Source of the DNA: Tistrella mobilis
GTDB lineage: Bacteria > Pseudomonadota > Alphaproteobacteria > Tistrellales > Tistrellaceae
Assembly (NCBI RefSeq): GCF_039634785.1
Contig: NZ_JBBIAB010000010.1
Coordinates: forward strand, 124,001-188,000
DNA: 64,000 bases
Direction: 5' to 3'
The position numbers and the translations under genes are program-made. The notes under the pieces are model-generated. The model ran no database searches. It saw only the letters and a program-made list of their open reading frames with translations, and had not been told where the DNA came from. Shown here one piece after another: positions 3,734 to 10,975 of the stretch (its first letter is position 1; each line of letters starts with the position of its first letter).

Positions 3734-4960
3734 TCAGGCGACCGCAGCCCCCTGGCGGCGGTCGAGGCCGAGCTCGCTCCAGACGGAGAGCAGCGCTTCG
3801 ACCAGATGGTCCATCATCGCGTCGTCATGGAAGGGGCTGGGCGTGAAGCGCAGCCGTTCGGTACCGCGCGGCACGGTCGGGTAGTTGATCGGCTGGACAT
3901 AGATGCCGTGCTCGTCCAGCAGCAGGTCGCTGGCCTTCTTGCACGCCACCGGATCCCCCACCATCACCGGCACGATATGGCTGACCGACGGCATCACCGG
4001 CAGGCCCGCTTCGGCGAGCAGCCGCTTCAGCCGGGCCGCACGCTCCTGATGGCGGCTGCGCTCGACCGTGCTTTCCTTCAGATGCCGCACGCTCGCGAGC
4101 GCACCGCCCGCAATCGCCGGCGGCAGCGAGGTCGAGAAGATGAAGCCCGGCGCATTGCTGCGGATAAAATCGACCGTCGCGGCCGAGGCGGCGACATAGC
4201 CGCCGACCACACCGAAGGCCTTGGCGAGGGTGCCCTGGATCAGGTCGATCCGCCCCATCAGCTCCCGCGCTTCGGCGACACCGCCGCCACGCGGGCCGTA
4301 GAGGCCCACGGCGTGAACCTCGTCGATATAGGAAAAGGCGCCATGGCGCTCGCAGACATCCAGGATCTCCGCGATCGGCGCGATGTCGCCATCCATCGAA
4401 TAGACCGATTCGAAGGCCACGATCTTGGGCGCCGCCGGGTCGACCGAGGCGAGCTTCGCCTCAAGATCGGCCGGATCATTGTGCCGGAAGATGTGCCGCG
4501 CCGCCCCGGAATGCCGGATGCCGGCGATCATCGAGGCGTGGTTGAGCGCGTCGGAGAACAGATGGCATCCGGGCAGACCACGCGCGAGGGTCGAAAGCGC
4601 CGCCTCGTTGGCGTTGTAGCCCGAGGTGAACAGCAGGGCCGCTTCCTTGCCGTGCAGATCGGCGAGCTCGGCTTCCAGCAGCACATGCAGATGGTTGGTG
4701 CCCGAAATATTGCGCGTGCCGCCCGCACCGGCGCCCATGTTCCGCACCGCATCCTGCATGGCCGCGAGCACCTTGGGGTGCTGGCCCATGCCCAGATAAT
4801 CGTTGCTGCACCAGACGACGATGTCGCGGGTCCCCTGGGGACCGTGATGGGTGGCGCGCGGGAAAGCGCCGGCATGGCGTTCGAGATCGGCGAAGACGCG
4901 GTAGCGGCCTTCGCGCTTGAGATCAGAGAGCGCGGCCTCGAAAAACGCCTGATAGTCCAT
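3734..4960 (-). CDS. hemA: 5-aminolevulinate synthase
   Basis: A PLP enzyme of 408 residues that condenses glycine with succinyl-CoA to 5-aminolevulinate, the first step of the C4 haem pathway typical of alphaproteobacteria. It begins [20 protein letters not shown], the usual family N-terminus, so the ATG at 4960 (preceded by GAGG) is preferred over a longer open frame. Visible motifs are [13 protein letters not shown], the glycine loop [27 protein letters not shown], the PLP-contacting [11 protein letters not shown], and the Schiff-base lysine in [12 protein letters not shown] at about residue 247. It stands alone with its own terminator. Confidence 0.97.
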
Positions 4961-5252
4961 CACTAACCTCACAACACGTCGTGACGCGGTCCGCCCGGCG
5001 GTTCGTCCGTCGGGCTCGAGACCCACGTGCCGGGAAGGCTTCTCCCGCAGGACCGGTTCCGGTGGGGGACCGGTCGGAACGGGGCGCTTCCTCTTGGCTC
5101 GGACACGTCACGCACCCGAACCGGCGTATCGGCCAGAGACCGGCAGTGCGGCCTGAAACCGGCGTCGCCCGAGGCGTGACATGTTCATGCCACAAAGATA
5201 GGCCGACAGCCTACGCGACACAACGACGCGCCGCGGATGGACGCCCGGAAAT
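4961..5252. other. Intergenic region upstream of hemA (292 bp)
   Basis: No gene recognised. It should carry the hemA promoter on the minus strand. I see no FNR/CRP-type palindrome and no clear terminator for the cyclic-nucleotide-binding gene, only a 6-bp stem (GACGCC/GGCGTC) overlapping that gene's stop. Confidence 0.35.
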
Positions 5253-5738
5253 TCAGGCGTCGACCGGCTCTGCCGCACCCGATCCGCCCTCGTCACCCGC
5301 GACTGCGAGGCGGTAGCGCTCGGTGGTGCGATCAACCCGGCGGGCCAGCTCGCGCATGATCTCCACCGCCATCTGCGGCACCTGCGCGATCAACTGGAAG
5401 AACAGTTCCTTGGAAATCCGGAGCGCGATGACCGGGGTTGCCGCCACCACAGTCGCGGTCCGGGGCACATCGCACAGAATGGCGATTTCGCCGACCACGT
5501 CGTTGCGGCCCAGATCGGCCACTTTCAACGGGCCGCGCGGGGTTGCGACCTGCACCTCGGCCGAGCCCTCGACGATGATGAACACCGCATCACCGACATC
5601 GCCCTCGGCAAACACCCGGTCGCCCGGATCGAAGGTCAGCCGCTCGCTGGTGAAGGCGACGAGCTTGAGCTTGGCCGGCTCGATGTTGGCGAACATCGGC
5701 ACATTGCGCAGCACTTCGACATCGCGAATCAGGCTCAC
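5253..5738 (-). CDS. Cyclic-nucleotide-binding-domain protein
   Basis: A 161-residue protein consisting almost only of a cNMP-binding (CRP-type) beta-roll. It shows FAEGDVGDAVFIIVEGSAEVQV and the phosphate-binding cassette GEIAILCDVPRTATV with the expected Glu and Arg. There is no DNA-binding helix-turn-helix and no transmembrane segment. The GTG at 5738 follows AGGAGG at ideal spacing, so I reject a start 60 bases upstream. It is 91 bases downstream of the unusual ABC protein on the same strand, and probably co-transcribed, so it may act as a cyclic-nucleotide-sensing partner. That link is inference. Confidence 0.9.
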   Translation of the reverse strand: MSLIRDVEVLRNVPMFANIEPAKLKLVAFTSERLTFDPGDRVFAEGDVGDAVFIIVEGSAEVQVATPRGPLKVADLGRNDVVGEIAILCDVPRTATVVAATPVIALRISKELFFQLIAQVPQMAVEIMRELARRVDRTTERYRLAVAGDEGGSGAAEPVDA

Positions 5739-5829
5739 CGTCGCCTCCTGCCCCTTGGCAGCCGGATCATCGCCGGCGCCCATTCCCCTTGCATGCATCC
5801 CACGGGACGCATTCCCCGATCGCGCACCA

Positions 5830-8475
5830 TCAGCCCTCGGACGTCAGGCGGCGGAAGGCGCTGCCTTCCTGATCGATCTCGTCCGGCGTGCCGGTTTGTG
5901 CAACCCGCCCGCCCTGCATCACGACCACACGGTCGAAACTCCGCGCCAGCGCCGGGCGCTGCAGCGACCACACGATGCAATGCCCGGCCATCGCCTCGCG
6001 CAGGCGCTCCACCAGGTCCACCTGCTCCAGCGTGTCGACGGCGGAGGTCGCCTCCGACAGGACCAGCAGATCCGGCCGCTTGAGCAGCGCCCGCGCGATC
6101 GCCGCCTTCTGGCGCTGTGCGTTCGACAGCCTGGAACCGCCGGAGCCCACCTGGAAGGCCAGCCCCGCCGCCATCACCACGTCGCGCAGCTCCGCCTCGT
6201 CGATCACCTGGGCGAGCTTCTGCCCCACCTTGCCGCGCGCCTGGGCCTGGCCGTGGACGATGCGCCCGAACAGGATGTTGTCCTGGATGGAACTGCGGGC
6301 ATGATAGCGCGTCCGGTCGAAGAACTCGATCCGTGCCTTGAGGTCGCCGGGTCCGTGTTCCATCAGGCGCTTGCGCGCAACCAGGATCCGCTCCCGCACC
6401 CGATCGTCGAGCACGTCCAGCCGGTGACGGGCGGGGATCAGCTGCAGGGCCAGCCCCACCAGGCGACGACGTTCCTGGGCGTCGAGTGCGCCCACGCCCT
6501 CGCGCTCGATGCGGTTCAGCAGCGTCTGATACCCCGGCAGATCTTCCGACGAGATGAAGCTGTACTGCTCGAAGAACTCATGGTCGGGCGGCAGGTCGGC
6601 GAAGAGTTCGATCATCGTGGCAGCGATACGCCGGCCGGCCTCGACCAGATCTGCATCCAGCGAACCATCGGTCAGCACCTCTTCGACGAAGGGATGCTCG
6701 ACCAGCGCCTCCAGCTCTTCACCATCGCCGCGCGGGGCGCCGAACAGCAGGTTTTCGGCGACACTGGCGTTGTCGTTCCAGCGCTCCACCTCGAAGGGTT
6801 CGACCAGCTTGCCCAACCCTTCCGCGCCGAGGGCGCTGTGGAATTTCTCGCGGCCTTCCAGCACCCGGGCCGCCCGCTCTGGCTCCGCCTTCGGATCGAT
6901 CCGGCCGCGCAGGCCCAGTGCGAAGACGTCGTCGTCCAGCCGCACGATCTTCAGGGCCTCGATCATCCGGCGTTCAACCGCCTCGATCCCCTCGCCGCCG
7001 ACCGCTTCGTAATCGATCCAGTCGGCATTGATGTCCCATTCGCAATTGCCCGAGCGCCGTGCCTCGTTCAGGTCCCGCTCCCACAGCCGCTTCGCCTCTC
7101 CGTCCAGCTCGCGCGCGATGACCGGGCGATGCTTCAGACCGTAGAGCAGGTTGTCGGCCAGGGCGCCGTTGAAGAACACGGTCGAGGCGCCGACGAAGGC
7201 GATCCGCCGCCCGACCACCGCATCGGGCAGGCCGGCCAGATCCTGGCCGCCGATCGTCACCCGTCCCGATTGCGGGTCGGCCAGACGCGCCAGGATCAGC
7301 GCCAGTTCGTGCTTACCGCTGCCAGCGCCGCCGACCACGGCGGTATGGGCATCGAGCGGCAGATGCAGGCTCACCCCTTCCAGCAGCTGGATTTCGCCCT
7401 CGTCGGCCAGGCTGACGCCCGAGAGGACGATCTCCCCCGTGAAGGGCTCGATCTTGGGCGGATCCGACAGAAGACGGTCGGGATCGATCATGCCGGCGGG
7501 CTCGAACTGGGCCACGACCTGCTCATACTTGATCCGCGCGTCTTCCTTCATCTGATAATAGGCGAGCAGTTCCTTCCACGGCGAATACAGCTCCTTATAG
7601 GCGCTGATCACCGCCACCAGCGCACCGATCGACAGCTGCCCCTTGATCACCAGATAGCCGCCGATGGTGAAGAAAAAGAACGGACCAAGCTGCGAAATGA
7701 AATTGTTCAGGAACTTGATAAAGAACTTGCGGATATAGATTTCGTAACGAACCCAGAACACGCCGTTCATGCGGTTCGCGAAATCCGCCAGCTCATAGGC
7801 CGCCGTATCGTTCGATCGAATTTCCTGAATACCGGTAATCGTCTCGCCGATCCGGTCAGAGACCTTGCGCATCAGCCGCACCCGGGTCTTGCCCAGGTTG
7901 TTGACCTTGCGCTGCAGCTTCGGGATCAGATAGATCTGGATCGGATAGAGCGAGATCGCCGCCAGCCCCATCAACGGGTCCTGCACGAACAGGAAGGCCA
8001 GAATGGTCAGCAGCGTGCCGCCCTGATAGGCGGGGGTTGCGATCGCCTCGGCGATGTAGCCGCCAAGCGGCTCCACCTCGCTGGTGATCATCGGAATGGT
8101 CTCACCGGCGCTGGTCCGGCGGAAATGCGGCAGCGGGAAGCGCAGCACCCGCATGAACAGGTCATAGCGCAGCCGCCGGAGCATGCGCTCGCCCAAGAGG
8201 CCCTTGTAGACGTTGATGACGTATTTGAAGGCCTGGTTGACGATGACCAACAGCAGGAAGATGGCGCAGAGTGCGAACAGATATTCCAGCTGATCGAATT
8301 CAAACCCGAAATAGGTCTTCGGGAAATCGCTGCCCTGGATCGCCTTGTTCAGGATGACCTTGGGCAGGTCCAGAAAGATATAGAGGAAGGGGAAGGATGC
8401 GACGGTGAGGATCAGAAGGATGATCTGATGTCGCAGACTATGGCGAACGATATAGCGGAACAGCGAATGTTCCAT
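5830..8475 (-). CDS. Exporter-like ABC protein with degenerate nucleotide-binding domain and long insertion
   Basis: An 881-residue inner-membrane protein. Residues 1-320 form an ABC-exporter transmembrane domain (MEHSLFRYIVRHSLRHQ onward). The nucleotide-binding domain follows from about 345. Walker A is GGAGSGKHE (382-390) with His where Ser/Thr is normal. The Q-loop position reads FVGAST and has no Gln. The signature is LSNAQ (783-787). Walker B is LLVLSEATSAVD, with Ser replacing Asp but Glu808 kept. The H-loop His is replaced (WSLQRP). About 300 residues, mostly charged and helical, separate Q loop from signature. The element that normally follows the Q loop occurs three times: NLLYG (442), NLLFG (575), NILFG (733). 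The ATG at 8475 follows AAGGGG; upstream frame is rejected as noncoding. Substrate unknown. Confidence 0.88.
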   Translation of the reverse strand: MEHSLFRYIVRHSLRHQIILLILTVASFPFLYIFLDLPKVILNKAIQGSDFPKTYFGFEFDQLEYLFALCAIFLLLVIVNQAFKYVINVYKGLLGERMLRRLRYDLFMRVLRFPLPHFRRTSAGETIPMITSEVEPLGGYIAEAIATPAYQGGTLLTILAFLFVQDPLMGLAAISLYPIQIYLIPKLQRKVNNLGKTRVRLMRKVSDRIGETITGIQEIRSNDTAAYELADFANRMNGVFWVRYEIYIRKFFIKFLNNFISQLGPFFFFTIGGYLVIKGQLSIGALVAVISAYKELYSPWKELLAYYQMKEDARIKYEQVVAQFEPAGMIDPDRLLSDPPKIEPFTGEIVLSGVSLADEGEIQLLEGVSLHLPLDAHTAVVGGAGSGKHELALILARLADPQSGRVTIGGQDLAGLPDAVVGRRIAFVGASTVFFNGALADNLLYGLKHRPVIARELDGEAKRLWERDLNEARRSGNCEWDINADWIDYEAVGGEGIEAVERRMIEALKIVRLDDDVFALGLRGRIDPKAEPERAARVLEGREKFHSALGAEGLGKLVEPFEVERWNDNASVAENLLFGAPRGDGEELEALVEHPFVEEVLTDGSLDADLVEAGRRIAATMIELFADLPPDHEFFEQYSFISSEDLPGYQTLLNRIEREGVGALDAQERRRLVGLALQLIPARHRLDVLDDRVRERILVARKRLMEHGPGDLKARIEFFDRTRYHARSSIQDNILFGRIVHGQAQARGKVGQKLAQVIDEAELRDVVMAAGLAFQVGSGGSRLSNAQRQKAAIARALLKRPDLLVLSEATSAVDTLEQVDLVERLREAMAGHCIVWSLQRPALARSFDRVVVMQGGRVAQTGTPDEIDQEGSAFRRLTSEG

Positions 8476-8836
8476 CGATACGCACCCCTTCTTGTTCTTC
8501 TTGTCCGCCCCCACGAAGGCCGGAATCGCCCCATCCCGGCAGCCGCCCCTCCGGCCGCCGATCAGCCTAAGCGCAGCGCAGGCCGGCCGCAAGTCCGACG
8601 GTCGGAAGGCGGCCGGGGGCAGTGCCCGGATATGTCGTCCGTTCAGCCCCCTCCCCCTAATTCCGGTCCCCCTGTTCAAGGCCCCCTGTTCGGGCGCCCC
8701 CCGTTCCGATGGTTGTGGGGGCCGAGACCGCAATGCCATCGTCGCGTCAAGGACGGGTTAACCATAGTCCGTAAACACGGCCCGGCATCGCCGGGGCCGG
8801 TGCATCACGACGCGATACGATCAGGGGCTAGAGGCC

Positions 8837-10975
8837 ATGCAGATTTCTCTCCGGTTCCGGGGCACGGCCTCGGTCGCCGCGCTCGCGGTTGCGCTTTCAT
8901 CCACCGTGGCATCCACCGGGGCCGTCGCCCAGGCGATCATCGACAACGGCACGGTGCAGCTCGGCATAAATCCCGAAGGCAATCTCGTCGTCCCGGGCTC
9001 TGCATCCACGCCGATCGGCCTGACCTATCTTCCCGAGAAGAACACCAGCGGCAGCTTCGGTGAAGCGCTGGGGCCCGGCTGCGCCTGCGAAGGCTGGGGC
9101 ATCGCCGATATCGGCACCACCCTGTTCGGCAAGGCCGGCGAAAGCTTCGGCACCGCCAATATCGACGCTGCCAGTGTCGACCTGACCGTCAGCGGCACCG
9201 GCACCCATGCGACATCAACAGGCAGCGCCGCCCGATCGGTGGTGAATGTGGTCGAGCCGGGCGCCGATGGCCGGGTGCTGCAGGTGATCCATGATTTCAA
9301 GCCGATCGACGGCGTGAAGAACCTGTATCAGGTCGACGTCACGGTGAAGAACATCTCGGCCTCGGCGGCAGGCGAGGTTGCGAAGCTGATCTATCGCCGT
9401 GCCATGGACTGGGATATTCCGCCCACCCAGTTCTCCGAGGTCGTCACCATTCAGGGCTGGCCGGCGACCAAGCTGATCGCCGTCAGCAATAACGGCTTCG
9501 CCGACGGCAATCCCAACACGCCGCAGGGCGCGATCCCGGCGACGGGCACGGTCGCCAACGGCAACTTCACCAATGGCGGCCCGTCCGACCATGGGGCGGT
9601 GTTCGACTTCGATTTCGGCAAGCTGCCGGTCGGCGAAGAGGTCACGTTCACCATCTATTACGGGGCGGCCGGCAACGAGGCCCAGGCGCTGGCGGCGCTC
9701 AAGGCGGTCGGTGCCGAGATCTATTCGCTCGGCAAACCCTCGGACGGCCCTGAAAGCGACGCCGATGCCGGCACACCCAACACCTTCATCTTCGCCTTCG
9801 CGGGCGTCGGCGGCACGCCGATCGGTGGCGGCGGTGGCGGCAGCGGCGGGTTGACCATTCCCTATGCCAACGCCTTCCGGCAGATGGCCTTCGCCATGGC
9901 GCGCGAACATATGCGCCTGGTCTCGCAGCGTCTGACCGGCCTCTCGCATGGCGGTGAAGGCACCGACGTGTTCTGGGGCGGGCGTTCGGGCATGATCACC
10001 GCCCTCACCGCCCCGCTCGCCCAGCTGGTCTCGGCTGAAGAGGATGGCGGCATCCAGCTGGCCCAGCTGGCCCAGAATGCGGCCGCAGCGCCCGCCGGCA
10101 ACACGGCCCAGGCACGCGACATGGGCGGTGTCGAAGGTCTGCGCGCCTATGTCACCGCCTCATACTCCGTGGGCGAGATCGACGGCACCCGGGCCAGCGG
10201 TGTCACGGTCGATTACGACGCCATCAACCTGGTCGGCGGGGTCGATTACGAGGTGCTGCGCGACGAGGGCGGTTTCGACAGCCTGCTGTTCGGTGCCGGT
10301 TTCGGCTATGGCGATTATGACGGCGAGATCGACAGCACCCGCACCCGCATCGACACCCGCGGCTATACCGCCATGCTCTACGGCTCGGCGACCTTCGCGA
10401 AATCGGCCTATGCCGATCTGACCCTCGCCCATAGCTGGCTGGATTACGACTATCGCCGCGACACCGGCACCGGCGACGTCACCGCTACGCCGGATGGCCG
10501 GGAATGGGGCGGCACGCTGCGGGTCGGCTATGACTTCCGGCCCCGCATCAGCCGCTTTTCCCCCACCCGCTGGGTGTTCGGGCCTTTCGTCCAGGGCCAG
10601 TATCTGAAGGCCGATATCGACGGCTTCACCGAACGGGGCACCGGCGGCGTCACCTTCGAAGATCAGAACGCAAAGTCGGTCACCTCGCAGCTTGGCATGC
10701 ATGCCTCGGTGATGCGGTCGATGGATTGGGGCGCCCTGATCTTCTCGGGCCGCATGGCCTGGGAACATGAATACGAGGACGGCGCCGACGCCGTCACCCT
10801 GTCGAGCGGCACGGCGCCCATCGACAAGGTCGATCCCGACTACGCCCGGCTGGAATTCGGCGTCACCGCGCTGATCGGCAACGACGTCGCGCTGACCGCC
10901 GACTATGCGACGCTCGCCGGCGACAAGTACCGGACCGAACATACCGGTCGGCTGCGCCTGCGCATCGGCTTCTGA
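8837..10975 (+). CDS. Autotransporter-like outer-membrane beta-barrel protein
   Basis: A 712-residue secreted protein. A Sec signal peptide ends near AVAQA (about residue 32). A beta-rich passenger follows, containing NLYQVDVTVKNISASAAGEV and RRAMDWDIPPTQFSE, similar to extracellular domains of PEP-CTERM-type surface proteins. A glycine hinge lies at about 329-338, then an amphipathic helix (AFRQMAFAMAREHM) typical of the barrel linker. From about 430 there are alternating aromatic strands ending in RLRLRIGF, with a terminal Phe as expected for outer-membrane barrels. No Ser protease or adhesin motif is evident. It stands alone, divergent from the ABC gene. Passenger role unknown. Confidence 0.85.
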   Translation: MQISLRFRGTASVAALAVALSSTVASTGAVAQAIIDNGTVQLGINPEGNLVVPGSASTPIGLTYLPEKNTSGSFGEALGPGCACEGWGIADIGTTLFGKAGESFGTANIDAASVDLTVSGTGTHATSTGSAARSVVNVVEPGADGRVLQVIHDFKPIDGVKNLYQVDVTVKNISASAAGEVAKLIYRRAMDWDIPPTQFSEVVTIQGWPATKLIAVSNNGFADGNPNTPQGAIPATGTVANGNFTNGGPSDHGAVFDFDFGKLPVGEEVTFTIYYGAAGNEAQALAALKAVGAEIYSLGKPSDGPESDADAGTPNTFIFAFAGVGGTPIGGGGGGSGGLTIPYANAFRQMAFAMAREHMRLVSQRLTGLSHGGEGTDVFWGGRSGMITALTAPLAQLVSAEEDGGIQLAQLAQNAAAAPAGNTAQARDMGGVEGLRAYVTASYSVGEIDGTRASGVTVDYDAINLVGGVDYEVLRDEGGFDSLLFGAGFGYGDYDGEIDSTRTRIDTRGYTAMLYGSATFAKSAYADLTLAHSWLDYDYRRDTGTGDVTATPDGREWGGTLRVGYDFRPRISRFSPTRWVFGPFVQGQYLKADIDGFTERGTGGVTFEDQNAKSVTSQLGMHASVMRSMDWGALIFSGRMAWEHEYEDGADAVTLSSGTAPIDKVDPDYARLEFGVTALIGNDVALTADYATLAGDKYRTEHTGRLRLRIGF

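Follow-up and report, generated by a model that had tools for sequence, protein, structure and literature searches.

An ABC exporter-like protein family of Alphaproteobacteria with eroded ATPase motifs, a probably triplicated helical subdomain and a cyclic-nucleotide-binding partner

What can an ABC exporter do once the residues of ATP hydrolysis have disappeared from its nucleotide-binding domain (NBD)? The question is raised by a gene of Tistrella mobilis in a stretch of 64,000 nucleotides (hereafter the window; positions 124,001 to 188,000 of contig NZ_JBBIAB010000010.1), which a preliminary description, made from the sequence alone, had located at positions 5830-8475 and read as an exporter-like protein with disabled motifs. 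Translation confirms the location: the gene lies on the minus strand, from an ATG at 8475 to a stop codon at 5830-5832, and encodes 881 residues, and its relatives align over the full length with the same start methionine. The opposite strand carries a 1246-codon open frame (5323-9063, plus strand), most likely a high-GC shadow frame and not a gene. Upstream and divergent lies a gene with an autotransporter beta-domain (8837-10975, plus strand; PF03797, E 1.1e-39), which was not seen among the conserved neighbours in distant relatives.

The transmembrane domain occupies residues 1-325 (7501..8475, minus strand; Pfam ABC_membrane PF00664, E 1.8e-22), is modelled by AF2 as long helices, and is the best-conserved part of the family, with a mean conservation of 0.63 vs 0.51-0.54 elsewhere in a 61-member alignment. 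In the Pfam scan the ABC ATPase domain is split, its first half falling at residues 343-448 (7132..7449, minus strand; ABC_tran PF00005, E 8e-16). The full-length AF2 model (pLDDT 87.1, pTM 0.82) nevertheless recovers a complete domain, in that residues 343-879 align with the NBD of ComA (3vx4) at Z 31.2 and rmsd 1.7 Å with 239/239 residues aligned, and the whole chain aligns with TM287/288, TmrAB and MsbA at Z of about 30. By its predicted fold, in which a six-helix ABC_membrane domain precedes an ABC NBD, the protein is thus a type IV (MsbA/ABCB-like) exporter, and the model retains the NBD fold despite the loss of its motifs. A closer assignment was not obtained, since the best NCBIfam match, MsbA (TIGR02203), scores 196.8 bits against a cut-off of 602 and the protein stays below the cut-offs of all NCBIfam equivalogs listed. 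The Pfam scan found no N-terminal C39 peptidase of the PCAT/HetC type.

The residues that mark an active ABC ATPase, namely the Walker A Ser/Thr, the Q-loop Gln, LSGGQ, the Walker B Asp and the H-loop His, are without exception missing or changed in the window protein. Walker A is reduced to GGAGSGKHE (residues 382-390; 7306..7332, minus strand, as are the motifs that follow), with His389 in place of Ser/Thr; A430, which precedes N442 by 12 residues, takes the place of the Q-loop Gln; the signature has degenerated to LSNAQRQ (residues 783-789; 6109..6129), L783-SNAQ standing where LSGGQ would be expected; the Walker B/D-loop region LLVLSEATSAVD (residues 803-814; 6034..6069) has Ser807 for the Asp, in LLVL-S807-E808; and the H-loop remnant IVWSLQRP (residues 834-841; 5953..5976) has Gln839 for the His. 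Lys388 and Glu808 are retained. The preliminary description had listed these two residues as kept and the Ser/Thr, Gln, Asp and His as lost, and all of this holds for the window protein.

It had also suggested asking whether the losses are conserved in homologues. Across 61 aligned relatives they prove to be a family trait, held more loosely than in the window protein: the Walker A Ser/Thr is kept in 3 relatives and absent from 58, the Q-loop Gln is kept in 11 and absent from 50, the Walker B Asp is kept in 12 and absent from 49, and the H-loop His is kept in 20. The first signature glycine survives in 7/61 and the second in 4/61, and the A-loop aromatic and the Mg ligands are, like these glycines, mostly lost, which puts even the binding of ATP in question. 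None of the 61 has the full ATPase motif set, and no relative combines Gln, His and Walker B Asp, the combination that would have spoken against the preliminary description. The two retained residues are likewise only partly general: position 388 is Lys or Arg in 56/61 (Arg in 20), and position 808 is Glu in only 31/61 and Glu or Asp in 42/61, while D814 is present in 52/61. The Walker A Ser/Thr position is occupied by Asp or Glu in 43/61 relatives, a substitution that looks more like a pattern than like decay. Comparison of the genes of the Tistrella group yields a dN/dS of 0.037 for the whole gene, and of about 0.04 for the degenerate domain as well as for the insertion, so the gene is not decaying; together with the presence of relatives in 131 genomes, this rules out a sequencing error or a pseudogene. 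Judged by these comparisons, the erosion of the motifs runs across the family and has proceeded under strong purifying selection. We infer that the family has probably lost ATP hydrolysis, although some relatives keep K388, E808, the His or the Gln, so that slow or unusual ATP use is possible in them.

Motif loss of this kind could also mean that the protein enters heterodimers as their degenerate half, with one functional ATP site contributed by a canonical half-transporter encoded elsewhere in the genome, in the manner of TM287/288 and TmrAB. Exporters with one degenerate site are indeed known, these two are among the structural matches, and the genome of the window has many canonical exporters. 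However, Walker A/B and the signature are both degraded here, which would spoil both composite sites, a condition that the known degenerate halves of heterodimeric exporters do not share, and no canonical exporter is found among the conserved neighbours of the family gene; we therefore consider a heterodimer unlikely. We think it quite improbable that ATP is still hydrolysed by an unusual route, the protein being an exporter of glycans or glycolipids whose motifs simply deviate from the standard: the basic residue at 388, the acidic residue at 808, MsbA as the best NCBIfam match and the glycosyltransferase linkage described below would suit such an exporter, but the widespread absence of the Ser/Thr, the Walker B Asp and the Gln, the loss of most signature glycines and an MsbA score far under its cut-off argue against it.

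The second peculiarity of the NBD is its length. From Q loop to signature the window protein counts about 353 residues vs about 55 in MsbA-type exporters, which agrees with the roughly 300 additional residues estimated beforehand, and the short element that normally follows the Q loop occurs at exactly the three positions that had been pointed out, as NLLYG at 442, NLLFG at 575 and NILFG at 733. Unit 1 consists of the Q-loop strand, including A430, and ADNLLYG (residues 424-446; 7138..7206, minus strand), unit 2 is LVEPFEVERWNDNASVAENLLFG (residues 557-579; 6739..6807, minus strand), and unit 3, RIEFFDRTRYHARSSIQDNILFG (residues 715-737; 6265..6333, minus strand), runs into the signature. Among the ten invariant columns of the 61-member alignment are N442, N575, N733 and G737. 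When segments of the family alignment were compared with hhalign, units 2 and 3 (residues 540-705 vs 690-800) matched with a probability of 98.4% (E 7.6e-15), and profile-profile alignment of unit 1 gave 90% (E 1.5e-6) with unit 2 and 88% (E 2.9e-6) with unit 3; at the level of sequence profiles, the units resemble each other far more than chance would predict. In comparisons with canonical exporters encoded in the same genome, the stretch from Q loop to ENIxxG is matched by unit 1 (96.7%) and the one from the Q-loop strand as far as Walker B by unit 3 (residues 706-812; 99.6%, E 3.6e-24); the match of unit 2 is weak (55%). The canonical Q-loop-to-ENIxxG piece is thus found on both sides of the extra residues, which is the pattern expected from a tandem duplication.

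Predicted alone by AF2, the extra region (residues 455-745; 6241..7113, minus strand) forms one confident domain (pLDDT 93.0, pTM 0.83), which answers the call for a structure prediction of the insertion in the preliminary description. Its top structural alignments are to the helical subdomains of IrtA, CtAtm1 and PaMsbA, and ABC helical subdomains rank first, second and fourth; these alignments are weak (Z 3.4-3.8), and the helical-subdomain reading therefore rests mainly on the profile alignments. Both lines of comparison support the internal duplication of a helical-subdomain piece that had been proposed. For the front of each unit, the profile comparisons give good support to the reading of the extra region as two added helical-subdomain copies; the rest of each unit probably belongs to the same copies, and for the back part of unit 2 (residues 640-722) no profile alignment to the canonical signature helix was obtained. 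A foreign known domain was considered as the source of the insert and rejected, since Foldseek found nothing convincing for the extra region alone (best E 1.2). A triplicated helical subdomain would be an unusual alteration of one of biology's most conserved motor domains.

The family is wide-spread. A search across the alphaproteobacterial class, with the extra region only as query, found relatives in 131 of 385 sampled genomes, nearly always one per genome, so that the earlier mention of similar proteins in Rhodospirillales proves too narrow. A phylum-wide profile search gave 32 positives in 398 genomes, all in the same class, the share of other classes among the 398 being not reported. Members are common on plasmids and chromids of Rhizobium, Sinorhizobium, Azospirillum and roseobacters, where they are annotated as ABC transporter only or not at all. 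Some genomes carry two or three fused paralogues (G154 with loci L079, L080 and L081; G330 with L082 and L083). The family gene of Sinorhizobium meliloti is intact in strain 2011 (L165; open frame of 912 aa), but a frameshift breaks it in the pSymB record of strain 1021 (L129:15724-18433; longest frame 805 aa) and also in R11 (L126), where the longest frame has 537 aa; phenotypes of 1021 may therefore not show its role. This gene is probably SMb20813, which one paper names in passing as an 'msbA homologue' (PMC10945364). The papers mentioning SMb20813, SMb20805 and SMb20811 give no function for the exporter-like family, and our literature searches found no functional description of it, in keeping with the preliminary description.

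Better guidance comes from the neighbouring genes. Directly downstream of the exporter-like gene, on the same strand and 31 bases past its stop codon, lies a gene for a 181-residue protein with a cyclic-nucleotide-binding domain (5253..5798, minus strand; PF00027, E 3.7e-20). Such a domain is encoded by the next gene in 40 of the 55 loci checked and is fused to the C-terminus of the exporter-like protein in 12, which makes it adjacent or fused in 52/55; in the other 3 it was not found. The phosphate-binding cassette of the window partner, VGEIAILCDVPRTATV, contains the cassette Arg and is that of a CRP-type domain, and most partners conserve the cassette as GE[IL]A.L...PR[TS]A. PF00027 was the only match in the Pfam scan of the partner, with no DNA-binding HTH, and the partner does not qualify as a CRP/FNR transcription factor. 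Domains that prefer cGMP, such as those of PKG and CNG channels, typically have a Thr directly after the cassette Arg. The ligand is presumably cAMP or cGMP, PRTAT resembling the cGMP-type cassette.

The fused clade L079-L084 has an altered cassette, and ligand binding may therefore be lost or changed there; the fused paralogues L079-L083, with for instance KRPLNL or PRQLNL in place of PRTATV, may sense something else. Repeated independent fusion of the partner domain was considered and set aside, one change on the tree being sufficient. Nucleotide cyclases lie beside several of the loci (L063, L071, L127, L129, L133, L134 and L137), three of them in Mesorhizobium WSM1497, and the Tistrella genome of the window encodes ten nucleotide cyclase domains, none of them on the contig of the window. 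At the WSM1497 locus, the partner is followed by the gene of an MBL-fold protein (L127:15204-16058), which has a sub-threshold match to the cyclic-nucleotide-degrading phosphodiesterase model NF041851 (E 1.7e-9) and also matches RNase Z models. In the window, the partner gene is followed on the same strand by a PLP-dependent gene (3734-5026, minus strand; family match Aminotran_1_2), which we take to be 5-aminolevulinate-synthase-like.

The other recurrent association is with glycosyltransferases. A conserved operon, divergent from the exporter-like gene in about half of the loci, encodes a GT28-like protein, two GT4 proteins, a histidine phosphatase, a second GT28-like protein and then a putative deacetylase, annotated as polysaccharide deacetylase in rhizobia. 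Among the 385 sampled genomes, 123 have both the first gene of this cluster and the exporter-like gene, 8 and 3 have a single one of the two, and 251 have neither (Fisher p 2e-86, a value that ignores kinship and is inflated by shared descent). Conserved physical linkage gives further support to this co-occurrence: the distance is at most 10 kb in 86 of the 123 genomes, and in the genome of the window the gene and the cluster share a contig at a distance of 39 kb.

A double import ATPase of the YejF/GsiA type follows the glycosyltransferase cluster in Tistrella (L132:16150-18099; G000:C10 at about 98-100 kb). In many relatives such an ATPase again lies close to either the cluster or the exporter-like gene, which suggests that an uptake system is linked to the pathway of these genes. 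One group of neighbours, cluster 11, had been a candidate for a canonical exporter; it consists mainly of import ATPases of this type, and is therefore not the partner of a heterodimer.

The cyclic-nucleotide-binding partner and the glycosyltransferase linkage, both absent from the preliminary description, are the best guides to function. We give an even chance to the reading that the protein is an ATPase-inactive ABC protein under cyclic-nucleotide control, which gates or licenses the export of a surface glycan and is not an ordinary pump. An exporter fold with a highly conserved membrane domain argues for a role at the translocation path. A normal pump cycle is made less likely by the eroded ATP sites, and the constant cyclic-nucleotide-binding partner offers an input alternative to ATP. 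The protein would dimerise in the inner membrane, where the dimer would act as a regulated gate, flippase or licensing factor for a lipid-linked or free glycan of the linked glycosyltransferases, which would open when the partner domain binds cAMP or cGMP and not through a cycle of ATP hydrolysis. For docking, the partner would use the two added helical subdomains, in each of which the Asn is invariant, and through them its movement would reach the membrane domain; their conservation would make them a natural site for the partner to act on. As substrate or process, the glycan that the linked enzymes make is the most likely candidate. The idea that the protein is a sensor or regulated gate, already voiced in the preliminary description, gains in strength from the partner. 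One could further speculate that gating is literal, and that the protein is a cyclic-nucleotide-gated ABC transporter through which the glycan is moved or released without ATP hydrolysis, the cAMP/cGMP domain acting via the two extra subdomains; this is a tentative proposal, and we rather doubt it. A regulatory scaffold, that is a membrane platform that recruits glycosyltransferases and switches them on cyclic nucleotides while moving no substrate, would suit the conserved helical subdomains as docking sites as well as the sensor and glycosyltransferase linkage, but is weakened by a transmembrane domain that is the most conserved part of the protein (0.63 vs about 0.52), which suggests a role at the translocation path, and we hold it to be very doubtful.

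The family is present in a third of the sampled alphaproteobacterial genomes and under strong selection in the Tistrella group. If the reading of a cyclic-nucleotide-controlled, ATPase-inactive protein is right, cyclic nucleotides would gain a direct, non-transcriptional output at the membrane of these bacteria, and the family would draw attention to an uncharacterised, widely conserved surface-glycan pathway and serve as a natural test of the abilities left to an ABC exporter that no longer hydrolyses ATP; were a cyclic-nucleotide-gated transporter to prove true, bacteria would have evolved, independently, a counterpart to the CFTR-type change from pump to ligand-gated path.

How does the family compare with known systems? 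The window protein agrees with the type IV exporters MsbA, TM287/288, TmrAB and PglK in the order of its domains and, along the entire chain, in fold, but it has lost the ATPase motif set and gained about 300 residues, apparently as two more helical subdomains. HetC of Nostoc is likewise an ABC exporter joined to a cyclic-nucleotide-binding-type domain, which is needed in vivo (PMC10986499). HetC, however, has a C39 peptidase, carries this domain at its N-terminus in a ppGpp-binding form and cannot do without its ATPase catalytic residue (PMC10986499), whereas in the window family the domain is C-terminal or encoded by a separate gene, no peptidase was found and the ATPase site is eroded. The partner itself resembles CRP- and CNG-type domains in its PF00027 fold and its cassette with Arg-Thr-Ala, but has neither the DNA-binding domain of the former nor the ion-channel pore of the latter, its output apparently being the ABC protein. 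As an analogy of how the protein might work, the closest parallels are SUR1/SUR2 and CFTR, in which an exporter fold with degenerate ATP sites serves as regulator or gate, and SUR chains are among the structural matches of the model. Unlike these, the window protein is bacterial and half-transporter-sized, with a triplicated helical subdomain and no indication of ABCC membership, and its signal would enter through the cyclic-nucleotide-binding partner.
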